Assembly: GCA_000230955.3 (NCBI GenBank)
Contig: CP007060.1
Span: 2,170,001-2,234,000, forward strand
Length of the DNA stretch: 64,000 nt
Reading direction: 5' to 3'
DNA from: Halobacterium sp. DL1
Lineage (GTDB): Archaea > Halobacteriota > Halobacteria > Halobacteriales > Halobacteriaceae
The position numbers were made by a program, and so were the translations under genes. Numbering within the stretch: position 1 is the stretch's first letter; each line of letters starts with the position of its first letter. This document shows positions 4,842 to 12,179 of the stretch, piece by piece. The notes under the pieces are model-generated. The model ran no database searches. It was not told the DNA's origin and worked only from the letters and a program-made list of their open reading frames with translations.

Positions 4842-5898
4842 CATCCGCCCTCTCGACGACGACGAACAGTGGAACGACCTGGTGGAACGGGCCCCCGAGA
4901 GCACGCCGTTCCACCGGATAGAAGCCCTAGAGACCCTCGAAAACCACAGTGCCGCCACCCTCCACCCTCTCGCCGGGTTCAAGGGGCAGGAGCCGGTCGG
5001 GCTGTTCCCGGTGTTCACCGTCTCGAAGGGGCCGATGACGGCCGCCTACTCCCCGCCGCCGGGGTTGCGGGTGTACAACCTGGGACCGCTCCGGCTGAAC
5101 ATGGGGAAGCTGAAGCGGCGCAAGCGCGACCGGCGCCACCGCCGGTTCATCGAGGCGGCCATCGAGTGGGTCGAACAGCGTGAGGCGCCCCAGTACTGGA
5201 ACCTCAGGACGACGCTCGGCTACGAGGACTCCCGCCCGTTCCACTGGAACGACTACGAAGTCGAACCCAGGTACACGTACGTCGTCGACCTCGACGCGTC
5301 CCCCGACGAGCTGTTACAGCGGTTCAGCTCCGACCTCCGTGGGAAACTCCGGAAGGAGTACGACGACGTGGACTACGAGATCACCGAGGGCGGGCCGCGG
5401 GCCATCAGCGAGATCGTCGAGATGACCCGCGAACGCCACCGCGAACAGGGCGAATCCTACCCGGTCACGTCGGCGTTCGTCAGCGAACTCGCCGACCGCC
5501 TCCCCAAGGGGGCCATCCGGCCGTACGTCTGCCGAATCGACGGCGAACTCGCGGGGGGCCTCATCGACGTCGAGTCCGCGGACACCGCGGGCGCCTGGAT
5601 CGCCAACGGGAAGACCGACGCGCCGATTCCGGTCAACGACCTCCTCGAGTGGCGGGTCTGCCGGGACGCGATGGACCGCGGGCTGACGTCGTTCGACCTG
5701 ATGGGGGCGAACCACGAGCGCATCTACTCGTACAAGGCGAAGTTCGGGCCGAGCCTCGAGCAGTACTTCAGCGTGAAGAAGTGGCCGCCAGGTGGGAAGG
5801 CCGCCAGGGGGCTCTACCAGAGCGTGCAGTCGACGGAGTCGCCCCGGCTACGAGTGGGGAGCGCGCTGAGCAGTCTCCTGACGAGCCGCTCACCGTGA
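4831..5898 (+). CDS. FemAB/BioF2-like GNAT acyltransferase
   Basis: 355 residues from the ATG at 4831, inside the end of the phosphodiesterase gene. The N-terminal part reads like the first half of a FemAB-type double GNAT fold ('STPFHRIEALETLE', basic 'KLKRRKRDRRHRR'). The second half (about 150-310) is a GNAT-like domain ending in 'GLTSFDLMGANHERIYSYKAKF', the pattern of the acetyltransferase-6/FemAB superfamily. Members transfer acyl or aminoacyl groups to cell-wall, polysaccharide or lipid acceptors. No transmembrane helix is seen. Overlap with the preceding AP-superfamily enzyme suggests one pathway, perhaps surface polymer decoration; the substrate is unknown. Confidence 0.75.
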   Translation: MSIDIRPLDDDEQWNDLVERAPESTPFHRIEALETLENHSAATLHPLAGFKGQEPVGLFPVFTVSKGPMTAAYSPPPGLRVYNLGPLRLNMGKLKRRKRDRRHRRFIEAAIEWVEQREAPQYWNLRTTLGYEDSRPFHWNDYEVEPRYTYVVDLDASPDELLQRFSSDLRGKLRKEYDDVDYEITEGGPRAISEIVEMTRERHREQGESYPVTSAFVSELADRLPKGAIRPYVCRIDGELAGGLIDVESADTAGAWIANGKTDAPIPVNDLLEWRVCRDAMDRGLTSFDLMGANHERIYSYKAKFGPSLEQYFSVKKWPPGGKAARGLYQSVQSTESPRLRVGSALSSLLTSRSP

Positions 5899-6071
5899 GC
5901 AGCCAGTAACCCGCGATAGGGACGTCGCGGCGTTCACCACGCCCCCAGACGTCTCCCTCGGGCAGTGCCGACGCAGTACAGAGGCCGGGACAGCGTACGC
6001 CACGCTGGCTGGACAACCAATTAGGCAAAGCACCACCATGTTTTACTGCGTTCACCGGCAAGTTCCGGTGA

Positions 6072-8144
6072 ATGGGACAGGAGACCCCCACCGAGGGTAA
6101 CTCCAGTTCTCGGGTTCGAGATCAGGAGGCCCTCGCCACACTCGGCCAGCGGGCACTGGAATCCGACGACATCGACGCGCTGATGGTCGACGTGAACGAG
6201 GCGGTCGCGGATACGCTGGACACCGAGTGCGCCTCCGTCTTCGAGTTGCTGCCGGGAGGTTCTGAGTTCTTCCTCCGACAGGGGACAGGCTGGGAGGAAG
6301 GGGTCGTCGGCAATACGACGGTCCCGACCGGGCACTCGCAGTCTGGCTACACACTGGTGTCGAAGGAACCCGTCATCGTCGACGACCTGCGCACCGAGGA
6401 CCGCTTCCCAGGTGACGACCTGCTCGTCGACCACGGCGTCGTCAGCGGCATCACGGTCCCAATCGGCCCGGTCGAGAACCCCTGGGGCGTCCTCGGAACG
6501 TTCGCGACCGACCAGCGGACGTTCACTGAAGCCGACGCGAACTTCGTCCAGAGCGTCGCCAACGTCCTCGTCTCCGCCATCGAAACGGAACGCGCCGAGA
6601 GCGAACTGCAGGAGATCTACGGCCGGATATCGGACGCGTTCTTCGCGCTCGACGACGAGTGGCGGTTCACCTACCTCAACGAACGCGCCCACGAGGTCAT
6701 CAACCCGGAGGGACGGGAGCTAGTCGGCGAGAACATCTGGGAGGCGTTTCCGGAAGCGACCGAACGGCAGTTCAAACCGAAGTACGAGCAGGCGGTGCAG
6801 GACCAGGAGACGGTTACATTCGAGGAGTACTACCCCGAACCGCTGGACGCCTGGTTCGAGGTCCGCGCGTACCCCTCCGAGTCGGGTCTGTCCGTCTACT
6901 TCCGGGACACCACGGACAACGTGGAGCGCCAGCGGGAACTCCGTGTGCAGGGGAAGGCATTACAGGAAGCAACCGAGTTGATCGCGGACCCCGACCGTTC
7001 GTTTCGCGAGAAAGTCGACGATTTGCTGGACGTGGTTCGCTCGGCGCTGGGGACGGATTACGGGACGCTCTCCCGCGTCGACGATGCGGCCAACGAGTAC
7101 CTCTTCGAGGCCGTCGTGGGGCCCGACGACGCCGACGTCGAGGCTGGCGATTCGGTCCCCCTCGACTCGACGAACTGCGAACACGCCGTGCGAACGAACC
7201 GGACGCTCGTACTCGCAGACGTCGACGAGGACGCTCCGGAGTTGGCGGACCGCGCCGGCAATGCCGAGTGGGGAATCTCCTGTTACCTCGGGACGCCGAT
7301 CACTGTCGGCGACGAGGTGTACGGCACCTTCTGCTTCTACGACATGGAGTCGCGGTCGGAGGAGTTCTCGGACTGGCAGGTTGCGTTCGTCGAACTCCTC
7401 GGCCACTGGGTGAGCTACGAACTCGAACGCGAACAGTACCACCGAAAACTCGAAGCGTCGAACGAACGTCTCGAGCAGTTCGCGTACGCGGCGTCCCACG
7501 ACCTCCAGGAGCCCCTGCGGATGGTCTCCAGTTACCTGCAACTCATCGAGAGACGGTACGCCGACGAACTCGACGACGACGGCCGGGAGTTCATCGAGTT
7601 CGCCGTCGACGGTGCCAACCGAATGCGGGAGATGACAGAGGGGCTGTTAGAGTACTCCCGCGTCGAGACGCGAGGGGACCCGTTCGAACCAGTGGACCTC
7701 GACGCCGTACTCGCGGACGTCCTCGACGACCTACAGGTGCGCATCGAGGAGACCGACGCCGAAATTGCCCACGAACCCCTCCCCACCGTCGAGGGTGACG
7801 CCGGGCAGTTGCGCCAGGTGTTCCAGAACCTCGTAGACAACGCCATTGACTACAGCGGCGAGGAGCCACCGGAGATAGAGATTACCGCCGAACGGGCCGA
7901 CGACGAGTGGGTGGTGTCGGTCCGCGACGAGGGCCTCGGCATCGACCCCGAGGACCAGGAGCGCATCTTCGAGGTGTTCCAGAGCGCTCAGAGTCACGAC
8001 GTCTCGGGGACGGGAATCGGGCTGGCGCTTGTCGAGCGCATCGTCGAACGCCACGGCGGCGACATCCGCGTCGACTCGGCACCCGGCGAGGGAACTACAT
8101 TCTCACTCACTCTGCCAGTTGCGAAAGAAGGTGACGACGAGTAA
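6072..8144 (+). CDS. GAF-PAS-GAF sensor histidine kinase
   Basis: 690 residues, soluble. Domains in order: GAF (about 25-180), PAS (about 183-295, 'ISDAFFALDDEWRFTYLNERA'), second GAF (about 310-450), HisKA with the phospho-His in 'YAASHDLQEPLRM', then HATPase with N box 'NLVDNAIDYS', G1 'DEGLGIDPED' and G2 'GTGIGLALVERIVERHGG'. No receiver is attached and no regulator gene is adjacent. The HisKA/ATPase half is nearly the same as in the kinase at 61399-63864, so the two are paralogs. A TTTTAC box about 30 bases upstream of the ATG fits a short-leader or leaderless transcript. The signal is unknown. Confidence 0.9.
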   Translation: MGQETPTEGNSSSRVRDQEALATLGQRALESDDIDALMVDVNEAVADTLDTECASVFELLPGGSEFFLRQGTGWEEGVVGNTTVPTGHSQSGYTLVSKEPVIVDDLRTEDRFPGDDLLVDHGVVSGITVPIGPVENPWGVLGTFATDQRTFTEADANFVQSVANVLVSAIETERAESELQEIYGRISDAFFALDDEWRFTYLNERAHEVINPEGRELVGENIWEAFPEATERQFKPKYEQAVQDQETVTFEEYYPEPLDAWFEVRAYPSESGLSVYFRDTTDNVERQRELRVQGKALQEATELIADPDRSFREKVDDLLDVVRSALGTDYGTLSRVDDAANEYLFEAVVGPDDADVEAGDSVPLDSTNCEHAVRTNRTLVLADVDEDAPELADRAGNAEWGISCYLGTPITVGDEVYGTFCFYDMESRSEEFSDWQVAFVELLGHWVSYELEREQYHRKLEASNERLEQFAYAASHDLQEPLRMVSSYLQLIERRYADELDDDGREFIEFAVDGANRMREMTEGLLEYSRVETRGDPFEPVDLDAVLADVLDDLQVRIEETDAEIAHEPLPTVEGDAGQLRQVFQNLVDNAIDYSGEEPPEIEITAERADDEWVVSVRDEGLGIDPEDQERIFEVFQSAQSHDVSGTGIGLALVERIVERHGGDIRVDSAPGEGTTFSLTLPVAKEGDDE

Positions 8145-8262: not shown

Positions 8263-8958
8263 TCAGTGCTGTTCGACGCCCTCGATGCCGGTCTCGGTGA
8301 TCTGGAAGCGGGCCTGCCCGCCCTCCGGCTGGGCGCGGTGTTTCTCGACGGTGGCACGCCGGTTGCCGCCACGGAACCGGTCGATTCGCAGCACGACGCC
8401 CGTCCAGTGGGAGAGCGTGTGCCCGCCGAGCGGACGCACGCGGTCGCTGTCGCTCTCCACGTCGGTGAACACCTGGTTCGTGATGATGACCGCGAGGTCG
8501 TGTTTCCGCGCGAGCGACAGCAAGTGGGTGACCTGGCTGGCGACCTGCCGGAGGGCCTCGCCGTGGTCGTCGTCGTCGCGCTCGAGGCGATAGAAGCCGG
8601 TCGCGGAGTCGAGGACGATGAGGTCCGCGCGCTCGGCGAAGTCGGCGGCGTCCTTGACCGCCTCGGCCTGCTCCTCGAAGTCGTGGACCGCAGAGAGTAC
8701 GATGCGGGCCGAGGCGTCCTCGTCGTCCGTGCGCGCGGAGAGCACTTGGTCGAAGCGCTCGACGGAGAGCCCCTCGGTGTCGATGTAGACGGCCGTCCCA
8801 CCCTCGGCGGCGACGTCGACAGCGGTCGACAGCGCGACGTTCGTCTTCCCCGCGCCGGGTGCGCCGTACACCTGCGTGACGGTGCCGCGTTCGATGCCGC
8901 CGCCGAGCAGGTCGTCGAGCGGGTCGCAGCCGGTCGAGACGTGGGTGTCGTCGCTCAC
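8263..8958 (-). CDS. radB: DNA repair and recombination protein RadB
   Basis: 231 residues from a GTG at 8958. It is a RecA-fold protein with Walker A GAPGAGKT at residues 32-39 and Walker B 'LIVLDS' near residue 110. It lacks the N-terminal helix-hairpin-helix domain of RadA, which is what separates RadB from RadA. RadB is a euryarchaeal recombination mediator that helps load RadA. The gene is divergent from the RuvC-like gene at 9049, with only 90 bases between the two start codons, so they probably share a promoter region. Confidence 0.93.
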   Translation of the reverse strand: MSDDTHVSTGCDPLDDLLGGGIERGTVTQVYGAPGAGKTNVALSTAVDVAAEGGTAVYIDTEGLSVERFDQVLSARTDDEDASARIVLSAVHDFEEQAEAVKDAADFAERADLIVLDSATGFYRLERDDDDHGEALRQVASQVTHLLSLARKHDLAVIITNQVFTDVESDSDRVRPLGGHTLSHWTGVVLRIDRFRGGNRRATVEKHRAQPEGGQARFQITETGIEGVEQH

Positions 8959-9048
8959 TGCGCGGCTATTGGCGCGTCCCGTGCAAAGTATTCTCGGGTC
9001 GCTCGCGCCGAGTAAGCGTTTTGCGCCCGGGGCACCCAGTTCCGGACA

Positions 9049-9771
9049 GTGATCGTCGTCGCCACGGCGGACTTCGAGGTGTACCACGAGGTCGTCGGCG
9101 AGCTGCGCGACCGGGACGTCGAGTTCACAACCGTCGAACCCGGCGACGCGCTGCCGGCTGAGGCAGACGTGCTCGTGACCGCCGGTGAAGCCGTAGACGT
9201 AGACGTCCCGGTGGTGGTTGCGGAGGCAGACGACCCGCGGCTCGCGGTCGAGGAAGCGCTGGTGCACGTCCGCGGCGGCGACGGACGGACCGTCGTCGGC
9301 ATCGATCCGGGGACGCGCCCGGGCATCGCTGTCCTGCGGAGCGGCATCGTCGTTGGCGCGTTCCAGGTGCCGGCCGAGCAGGCGGCCGAGGTGGTCGCCG
9401 AGGAGGTCGCGGGCAGCGATGACGCAGTGGTCCGCATCGGCGACGGGGCGCGGCTGACAGGGGCGAAGATCGTCGACGAACTCGACGACGTGCGCGTCGA
9501 ACTCGTCGACGAGACGGGGACGACGCCGTCGCTCGGCCCGGGCGCCCGGGGCATGGGCGACGTGCTCGCGGCGGTGAACATCGCGCTGATGACCGGCGAG
9601 GAGATAGAGGGGCGCAGCATCGAACCGACTGCTGGCGAGATACAGGTCATCAAGAGCCGTTCGCGGCAGGCCAGCGAGGAGAACCGCACCATCACCGAGG
9701 AGCTCGCCCGGAAGGTGGCGACGGGAACACTCACGCTGGAGGAGGCGCTCGACGAGCACCGCGAGACGTAA
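9049..9771 (+). CDS. RuvC-like RNase H-fold protein
   Basis: 240 residues from a GTG. Residues 1-75 form a small alpha/beta domain. From residue 80 there is a clear RNase H/RuvC-type first strand, 'VVGIDPGTRPGIAV' (Asp86). Further acidic residues lie where the fold usually places them: Asp132 ('IGDG'), Glu155 ('VDETGT') and Asp171 in 'GMGDVLAAVNIAL', which resembles the last RuvC motif (D-x-x-D/A-A-x-A-x-A). Known members of this fold are resolvases and nucleases. Its position head to head with radB supports a DNA-repair role, but activity is inference. The C-terminus is a charged helical tail. Confidence 0.7.
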   Translation: MIVVATADFEVYHEVVGELRDRDVEFTTVEPGDALPAEADVLVTAGEAVDVDVPVVVAEADDPRLAVEEALVHVRGGDGRTVVGIDPGTRPGIAVLRSGIVVGAFQVPAEQAAEVVAEEVAGSDDAVVRIGDGARLTGAKIVDELDDVRVELVDETGTTPSLGPGARGMGDVLAAVNIALMTGEEIEGRSIEPTAGEIQVIKSRSRQASEENRTITEELARKVATGTLTLEEALDEHRET

Positions 9772-9953: not shown

Positions 9954-12179
9954 ATGAACGAAGTTCAACTCGAGGTGGCGAAAGCCTACCCCAACGACTC
10001 GGGGCGGGGTATCGCCCGCCTCGACCCCGACACGCTCCTGCACCTGAAGCTCAGCCCGGGTGACATCATCGAGATCGAGGGTGCCGAAACCACTGCCGCG
10101 AAGGTGTGGCGTGCCGACCGGCAGGACTGGAACACGGACACCATCCGCATCGACGGCTTCACGCGCCAGAACGCCGACGTCGGCATCGGCGAACGCGTCA
10201 AGATTCGGAAGGCCGAGGCCGAGAAGGCCGACCGTCTCGTGCTCGCGCCCCCGGAGGAGGCGAGTGTCCAGTTCGGCTCCGACGCGGCCGGAATGGTCAA
10301 GCGCCAGATTCTGAAGCGGCCGGTCGTCGCTCGCGACATCGTCCCGGTGATGTCGAGCACGAACCACCCCTTCATGCGGTCGCCGGGACAGGCCATCCCG
10401 CTCATCGCCGTCGAGACCGAACCCGATGGCGTCTGTCTCGTCACCGAGGACACCGAGGTGGAACTGCGCGAGGAGCCGATCAGCGGCTTCGAGCGCACCG
10501 GCGGCGGCATCACGTACGAGGACATCGGCGGCCTCGAGAGCGAGATCCAGCGCGTCCGGGAGATGGTCGAGCTCCCGATGAAACACCCCCAGATCTTCCA
10601 GAAGCTCGGCATCGAGCCGCCACAGGGGGTGTTGCTCCACGGGCCGCCGGGCACGGGGAAGACGCTGCTCGCGAAGGCCGTCGCCAACGAGACGTCCGCG
10701 AGCTTCTTCTCCATCGCGGGCCCGGAGATTATCTCCAAGTACTACGGCGAGTCCGAACAGCAACTCAGAGAGATATTCGAGGACGCTAAAGAGGAGTCGC
10801 CGGCCATCATCTTCATCGACGAACTCGACTCCATCGCCCCGAAGCGCGAGGACGTCACCGGCGAGGTCGAGCGGCGTGTCGTCGCACAGCTCCTGAGCCT
10901 GATGGACGGCCTCGAGGAGCGCGGCGACGTGACCGTCATCGCGGCGACGAACCGCGTCGACGCTATCGACCCCGCGCTGCGCCGCGGTGGCCGCTTCGAC
11001 CGCGAGATCGAGATCGGCGTGCCGGACGAGGTCGGCCGCGAGGAGATCCTGAAGATCCACACGCGGGGCATGCCGCTGTCCGACGACGTCAACCTCGGTT
11101 CGCTCGCCGACGACACCCACGGCTTCGTCGGCGCCGACATCGAGAGCCTCACGAAGGAGGCCGCGATGCGCGCGCTCCGGCGCTACCTCCCCGAGATAGA
11201 GCTCGACGAGGAGGACATCCCGCCGAGCCTCATCGACCGCATGATCGTCAAGCGTGAGGACTTCAAGGGGGCGCTCAACGAGGTCGAGCCCTCCGCGATG
11301 CGGGAGGTCCTCGTCGAACTCCCGAAGCTCTCGTGGGACGACGTCGGCGGTCTCGACGACGCCAAGGACAACATCAAGGAGTCCGTCGAGTGGCCGCTCA
11401 ACCAGCCCGAGAAGTTCACCCGGATGGGCGTGGACCCGCCCGCCGGCGTGCTGCTGTACGGGCCGCCGGGCACCGGCAAGACGCTGATGGCGAAGGCCGT
11501 TGCCAACGAGACGGACGCCAACTTCATCAGCGTGCGCGGCCCCCAGCTCCTCTCGAAGTGGGTCGGCGAGTCCGAGAAGGCCATCCGGCAGACGTTCCGG
11601 AAGGCCCGCCAGGTCTCACCGACGGTCATCTTCTTCGACGAGCTGGACAGCCTCGCGCCCGGCCGCGGGCAGGACGTCGGGAACAACGTCTCCGAGCGCG
11701 TCGTCAACCAGCTCCTGACGGAGCTCGACGGCCTCGAGGAGATGGAGGAGGTGATGGTCATCGCCGCGACCAACCGCCCCGACATCATCGACCCGGCGCT
11801 CATCCGGAGCGGGCGCTTCGACCGCCTCGTGCAGGTCGGCCAACCCGACGTGGAGGGCCGCGAGCAGATCCTGAAGATCCACTCCGCGGACATCCCGCTC
11901 GCGCCGGACGTCAGCCTCCGCGAACTCGCCGAGATCACGGACGGCTACGTCGGCAGCGACCTGGCGAACATCACCCGCGAGGCCGCCATCGAGGCGCTCC
12001 GCGAGGACGAGAACGCCGAAGAGGTCGAGATGCGGCACTTCCGCCGCGCCATGGAGGACGTCCGCCCCACCATCACGGACGACCTCATGGACTACTACGA
12101 CCGCGTCGAGGAGCAGTTCAAGGGCAGCCAGAACCCCGAGACGGACCGCCGCCGCGGCGGCCACATCGGCTTCCAGTAA
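9954..12179 (+). CDS. cdc48: Cdc48/VAT-type AAA+ ATPase
   Basis: 741 residues from the ATG at 9954; the frame is open further upstream, but the conserved protein starts '[19 protein letters not shown]'. It has an N-domain (double-psi barrel plus four-strand part, about 1-180) followed by two AAA modules. Each has Walker A GPPGTGKT, Walker B 'FIDELDS'/'FFDELDS' and an SRH with arginine fingers ('[13 protein letters not shown]', '[13 protein letters not shown]'). It unfolds proteins, probably feeding the proteasome. It appears to be a single gene. A 14-base palindrome and a T5 tract follow its stop. Confidence 0.95.

Follow-up and report, generated by a model that had tools for sequence, protein, structure and literature searches.

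A predicted RNase H-fold protein with a YqgF-type acidic triad, linked to radB in haloarchaea, is a candidate repair nuclease

RadB is an archaeal recombination mediator, and to our knowledge no nuclease has been tied to it. Hjc has a PD-(D/E)XK fold and FEN1 is a structure-specific repair nuclease; the Tex YqgF domain is regarded as non-catalytic, with a binding or scaffolding role. In Haloferax volcanii, Hjc and Hef are alternative resolvases (PMC7776575). RuvC carries a Glu at the end of β4 and two acids on its last helix, and the YqgF arrangement consists of a Glu ending β5 and a single acid on α3 (PMC9601230). Mutation of D22, E106 or D122 in YqgF from D. radiodurans impairs or blocks its RNase activity (PMC9601230). 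DUF460 proteins have been grouped with resolvases and Tex (PMC3985635).

The radB locus and its divergent neighbour

The window, a stretch of 64,000 nucleotides from Halobacterium sp. DL1, contains an open reading frame, here called X, that lies between radB and cdc48:

8263..8958, minus strand: radB, recombination mediator RadB (TIGR02237, 270 bits; NF006861, 389 bits)
8959..9048, no strand: radB–X intergenic region, 90 bases, from the coordinates
8983..8992, minus strand: TATA-like box of radB, GCAAAG on the plus strand, about 25–34 nt 5' of radB, matching an A-rich element in relatives
9014..9024, plus strand: TATA-like box of X, GCGTTTTGC, about 25–35 nt 5' of X, matching a T-rich element in relatives
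9049..9771, plus strand: gene X, predicted 240-aa YqgF/Tex-type RNase H-fold protein (open reading frame with GTG start; conservation; AlphaFold2 and Foldseek)
9954..12179, plus strand: cdc48 AAA ATPase, first gene 3' of X and often linked to it (open reading frame)

The radB match lies far above the cut-off of both NCBIfam models, which bears out the head-to-head placement of radB and X, 90 bases apart, in an earlier note on this DNA. The same note had drawn X from 8958 to 9771; the end stands, the start moves to 9049, and 8958 is the first base of the radB start codon. Among named organisms, Halobacterium species are the closest relatives of the locus. Most relatives carry an A-rich GCAAAA-type element at a similar distance from radB, and a T-rich TTTT/TTTA element is found at a similar distance from X. 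Since each strand has a conserved TATA-like box roughly 25–35 nt from its own start codon, the gap, whose length had been given correctly but which had been read as a shared divergent promoter region, resembles a pair of adjoining core promoters, back to back and one per strand. In Haloarcula and Halorientalis (L104, L105, L107, L115, L116, L117, L124 and L125) an extra ∼1–1.4 kb separates radB from X. Six homologues outside the class (L080, L081, L082, L085, L087 and L094) have no ATG, GTG or TTG near the aligned X start and may begin at a rare codon or at another position.

X is present in 119/145 genomes of the haloarchaeal class. It also occurs, at about 40% identity, in 23 genomes sampled from the phylum's other classes (three DUF460 cross-hits excluded). 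The adjacency to radB is conserved well beyond the species. radB diverges from X at less than 5 kb in 103 of 118 class genomes, 72 of them with less than 400 bp between the two genes; it falls inside the fetched flank in 76 of 80 named haloarchaeal loci and is immediately divergent in 10 of 16 loci outside the class, where X shows 38–43% identity. By chance, far fewer than 1% of genomes of similar size would be expected to have a given gene less than 5 kb away. Linkage by itself is not proof of joint action. Of the 80 named haloarchaeal loci, 48 have a cdc48 gene 3' of X at no more than 3 kb, and 7 of the 16 loci from other classes also have one close to X. In four loci that belong to a single archaeal family of another class (L090–L093), X is not beside radB; it sits directly 3' of FEN1 on the same strand (XPG domains; L090, 6136–7152).

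X has been lost in several lineages. Co-loss with radB was rejected, because radB is retained in 145/145 class genomes, including the 26/145 without X; its absence from genomes that keep radB means that X is dispensable. In a small-genome relative without X (L226, 2347–5368), radB and cdc48 stand directly head to head, which suggests a clean deletion. An X-less genome of the window's own genus (L225) has an unrelated uncharacterised open reading frame (5808–6572) between radB and cdc48, in the place of X. Both arrangements are consistent with clean loss of the gene.

L225 also has a CBS-like gene on the far side of radB. Since HVO_2383 encodes RadB in H. volcanii and HVO_2384 encodes a CBS protein, the X orthologue there is by position likely to be HVO_2382. 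A Cdc48a neighbourhood analysis lists HVO_2382 as uncharacterised but of interest (PMC10470531), and its main text gave no function for the protein. The family has already come into view elsewhere as a conserved hypothetical protein. The literature searched, which included that main text, held no description of the nature of the family or of its deep linkage to radB.

Predicted fold and acidic residues

An AlphaFold2 model of X was calculated from 62 haloarchaeal sequences, leaving out the distant homologues (mean pLDDT 87, pTM 0.60). Residue conservation was counted over 86 distinct homologues. The following features were assigned within the gene, all on the plus strand:

9049..9282: N-terminal α/β (Rossmann-like) domain, residues 1–78 (AlphaFold2 of the isolated domain)
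9289..9588: predicted RNase H-fold core, residues 81–180 (AlphaFold2 topology, Tex match, PHROG 1770)
9304..9306: codon of Asp86, the β1 acid (GIDPG), Asp in 86/86
9442..9444: codon of Asp132, an earlier candidate, 76 Asp, 7 His and 3 Asn of 86
9511..9513: codon of Glu155, the acid ending β5 (VDE[TS]xTTP) at the YqgF position, Glu in 86/86
9559..9561: codon of Asp171, the αC acid (DxxAAxNIA), Asp in 86/86
9631..9765: C-terminal helices, residues 195–239, with the invariant Arg206 in an SR motif (AlphaFold2; conservation)

In the model, residues 81–180 are arranged as β1-β2-β3-αA-β4-αB-β5-αC, the RNase H order, with GIDPGT at residues 84–89; this topology and the conserved β1 acid, Asp86, place X in the RNase H-like superfamily. 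The top PDB matches of the full model in Foldseek were both Tex (3bzc, E 2.6e-6; 2oce, E 1.6e-5; probability 1.00), followed by a third at E 3.6e-3, and the viral matches include many phage RuvC-like resolvases (probability 1.00). As the TM-scores (TMq about 0.35) are only moderate and the rmsd is large across the full alignment, only the core is secure, and our claim leans on that core together with independent sequence evidence. The N-terminal domain was predicted well in isolation (pLDDT 94.5) and had no specific relative among PDB structures (best E 0.06). The RNase H fold and a separate α/β domain in front of it, both proposed in the earlier note, are therefore retained.

No curated Pfam or NCBIfam model scored above its own cut-off against X. 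PF03652 (RuvX/YqgF) gave no match up to E 5, PF01870 (Hjc) did not match, and PF16921 (Tex) matched neither X nor anything else in the genome; searches of PDB sequences with phmmer and with a profile returned chance matches only. NCBIfam matches to chemotaxis transducers were rejected as chance, and PADLOC gave no match, hence no sign of a defence role. The PHROG 1770 Holliday junction resolvase profile matches residues 81–203 (E 4.4e-4). A single E. coli Tex sequence was not significant in hhalign and a Tex alignment was needed. When a profile of 19 diverse X members was compared with the YqgF domains of seven bacterial Tex proteins, 119 columns aligned collinearly, with E 3e-4 and, in the other direction, 6e-5 (scores 32.3 and 36.4); 40 column shuffles scored no higher than 24.7 and the reversed control 11.0. 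The alignment to RuvX/YqgF covers 84 columns (score 26.7 against a shuffle maximum of 18.4). Glu155 pairs with the Glu of Tex SEAG and of YqgF DER. At the level of sequence, the E-values for Tex (3e-4) and YqgF (1.5e-3) are marginal.

Three of the four acids singled out in the earlier note (Asp86, Glu155 and Asp171) are invariant. The fourth, Asp132, is replaced by His or Asn in some of the homologues counted above and is for that reason unlikely to be catalytic. Arg129, Arg135 and Arg206 are also invariant (86/86), and Ser205 is kept in 85/86. An Asp on β1, a Glu ending β5 and one Asp on αC correspond to the YqgF/RuvX scheme. 'RuvC-like', as X had been called, does not hold in the strict sense: the β4-end Glu is missing, the nearest acid being the variable Asp132, and of the two acids expected on the last helix X conserves a single one, Asp171. 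The acids that fit the YqgF pattern are kept, the radB link is conserved and the RNase H fold is recovered; none of the three grounds on which the original proposal might have fallen was encountered. The assignment rests on structure prediction and remote homology, and X very probably has an RNase H fold with a YqgF-type site.

The closest comparison is the Tex YqgF domain, which shares with X the RNase H core, the collinear motifs GxDPGxRxG and IGxGxxxR, the β5-end Glu, and A-V-[NS]-I-A followed by [IE]-[DE]-P. Unlike Tex, X has only 240 residues, lacks S1 and HhH domains, has an N-domain of its own and keeps the third acid; the Tex proteins compared have no acid at the place equivalent to Asp171 (position judged by eye, starting from the AVSIA/AVNIA motif). 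RuvX/YqgF proteins have acids after β1, ending β5 and singly on αC, and a VDExxTT motif, but are bacterial and about 140 residues long, whereas X has N- and C-terminal additions. DUF460/COG2433 proteins (PF04312) are, like X, archaeal and carry an IVGIDPGT motif. The match is weak: 17 bits on X, under the 28-bit cut-off, and below cut-off in 19/19 members tested (best E 2e-4), with an alignment that covers the first strands. These proteins, unlike X, have about 650 residues. A full-length DUF460/COG2433 protein is encoded separately in a genome that also has X (L100, genome C1:147967), where two RNase H families of the RuvC/Tex clade thus coexist; X is therefore a separate, paralogous family. 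RuvC shares the fold and the GIDPG strand, but X differs in its acids, as set out above, and has no junction-binding helix pair: no counterpart of α3a/α3b was seen between β5 and αC in the AlphaFold2 model. Hjc is unrelated and is encoded by a gene of its own, elsewhere in the same genomes; the only likeness would be a possible overlap of pathway.

Proposed role and alternatives

What follows on catalysis, on the substrate and on a place in the RadB pathway is inferred from the predicted fold, the triad and the gene neighbourhood. X probably acts in DNA (or RNA:DNA) repair, as a nuclease that has so far escaped recognition, and on balance we lean towards an active metal-dependent enzyme of recombination or fork repair. 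In such an enzyme, Asp86, Glu155 and Asp171 of the core would bind the catalytic metal, the invariant arginines (Arg129, Arg135 and Arg206) would probably hold the nucleic-acid backbone, and the Rossmann-like N-domain would probably serve specificity, partner binding or dimerisation. Its likeliest target would be a branched or hybrid intermediate that arises during fork repair or RadA/RadB recombination, which X would cut in an accessory role beside Hjc and Hef. Hjc was found in 59/59 class genomes sampled, with or without X, and X as a replacement for Hjc was therefore rejected. With Hjc universal in this sample, and Hjc and Hef serving as alternative resolvases, any part that X plays in recombination would be an accessory one. 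That X has only three carboxylates counts against a nuclease. For YqgF proteins themselves, the activities are disputed or directed at RNA (PMC9601230).

A different account would make X an RNA-processing enzyme like bacterial YqgF, acting on pre-rRNA or mRNA and tied to the RNA-decay/Cdc48 side and not to recombination. YqgF of D. radiodurans is indeed a Mn2+-dependent RNase (PMC9601230), cdc48 is often linked to X, and H. volcanii Cdc48a associates with the RecJ3/4–aRNase J nuclease complex (PMC10470531). However, outside the class radB is a steadier neighbour of X than cdc48 (10/16 versus 7/16), FEN1 is the neighbour in one lineage where radB is not adjacent, and X is lost repeatedly, whereas bacterial YqgF is widespread and often essential. 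We regard RNA processing as unlikely. It is more doubtful still that X has no catalytic activity and serves to bind nucleic acid or as a scaffold. Tex, its closest structural match, would favour such a role, but the Tex proteins compared retain the β1 Asp and β5 Glu and lack the third acid, whereas X keeps all three in every homologue; a binding role alone would not need three acids. The least probable role is that of a genuine Holliday junction resolvase, second or backup, dedicated to RadA/RadB joint molecules: the fold class, the radB linkage, the PHROG 1770 match and the junction cleavage reported for M. tuberculosis RuvX and H. pylori DprB (cited in PMC9601230) speak for it, but Hjc is there whether X is present or not, H. 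volcanii already has Hjc and Hef as alternatives (PMC7776575), and X has neither a counterpart of α3a/α3b in its model nor evidence of a dimer.

We thus retain the accessory repair nuclease as the preferred reading. In its most far-reaching form, which we put forward tentatively and consider rather unlikely as a whole, X would represent an archaeal nuclease family that combines a Rossmann-like N-domain with an intact YqgF-type site and acts on RadA/RadB joint molecules or on stalled forks, which would add a third route to those of Hjc and Hef. The family offers a specific gene, probably HVO_2382, that can be knocked out in H. volcanii for probing how archaea process recombination intermediates. 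As a relative of the Tex YqgF domain with the triad intact, it is also useful for asking what the former role of that domain was.
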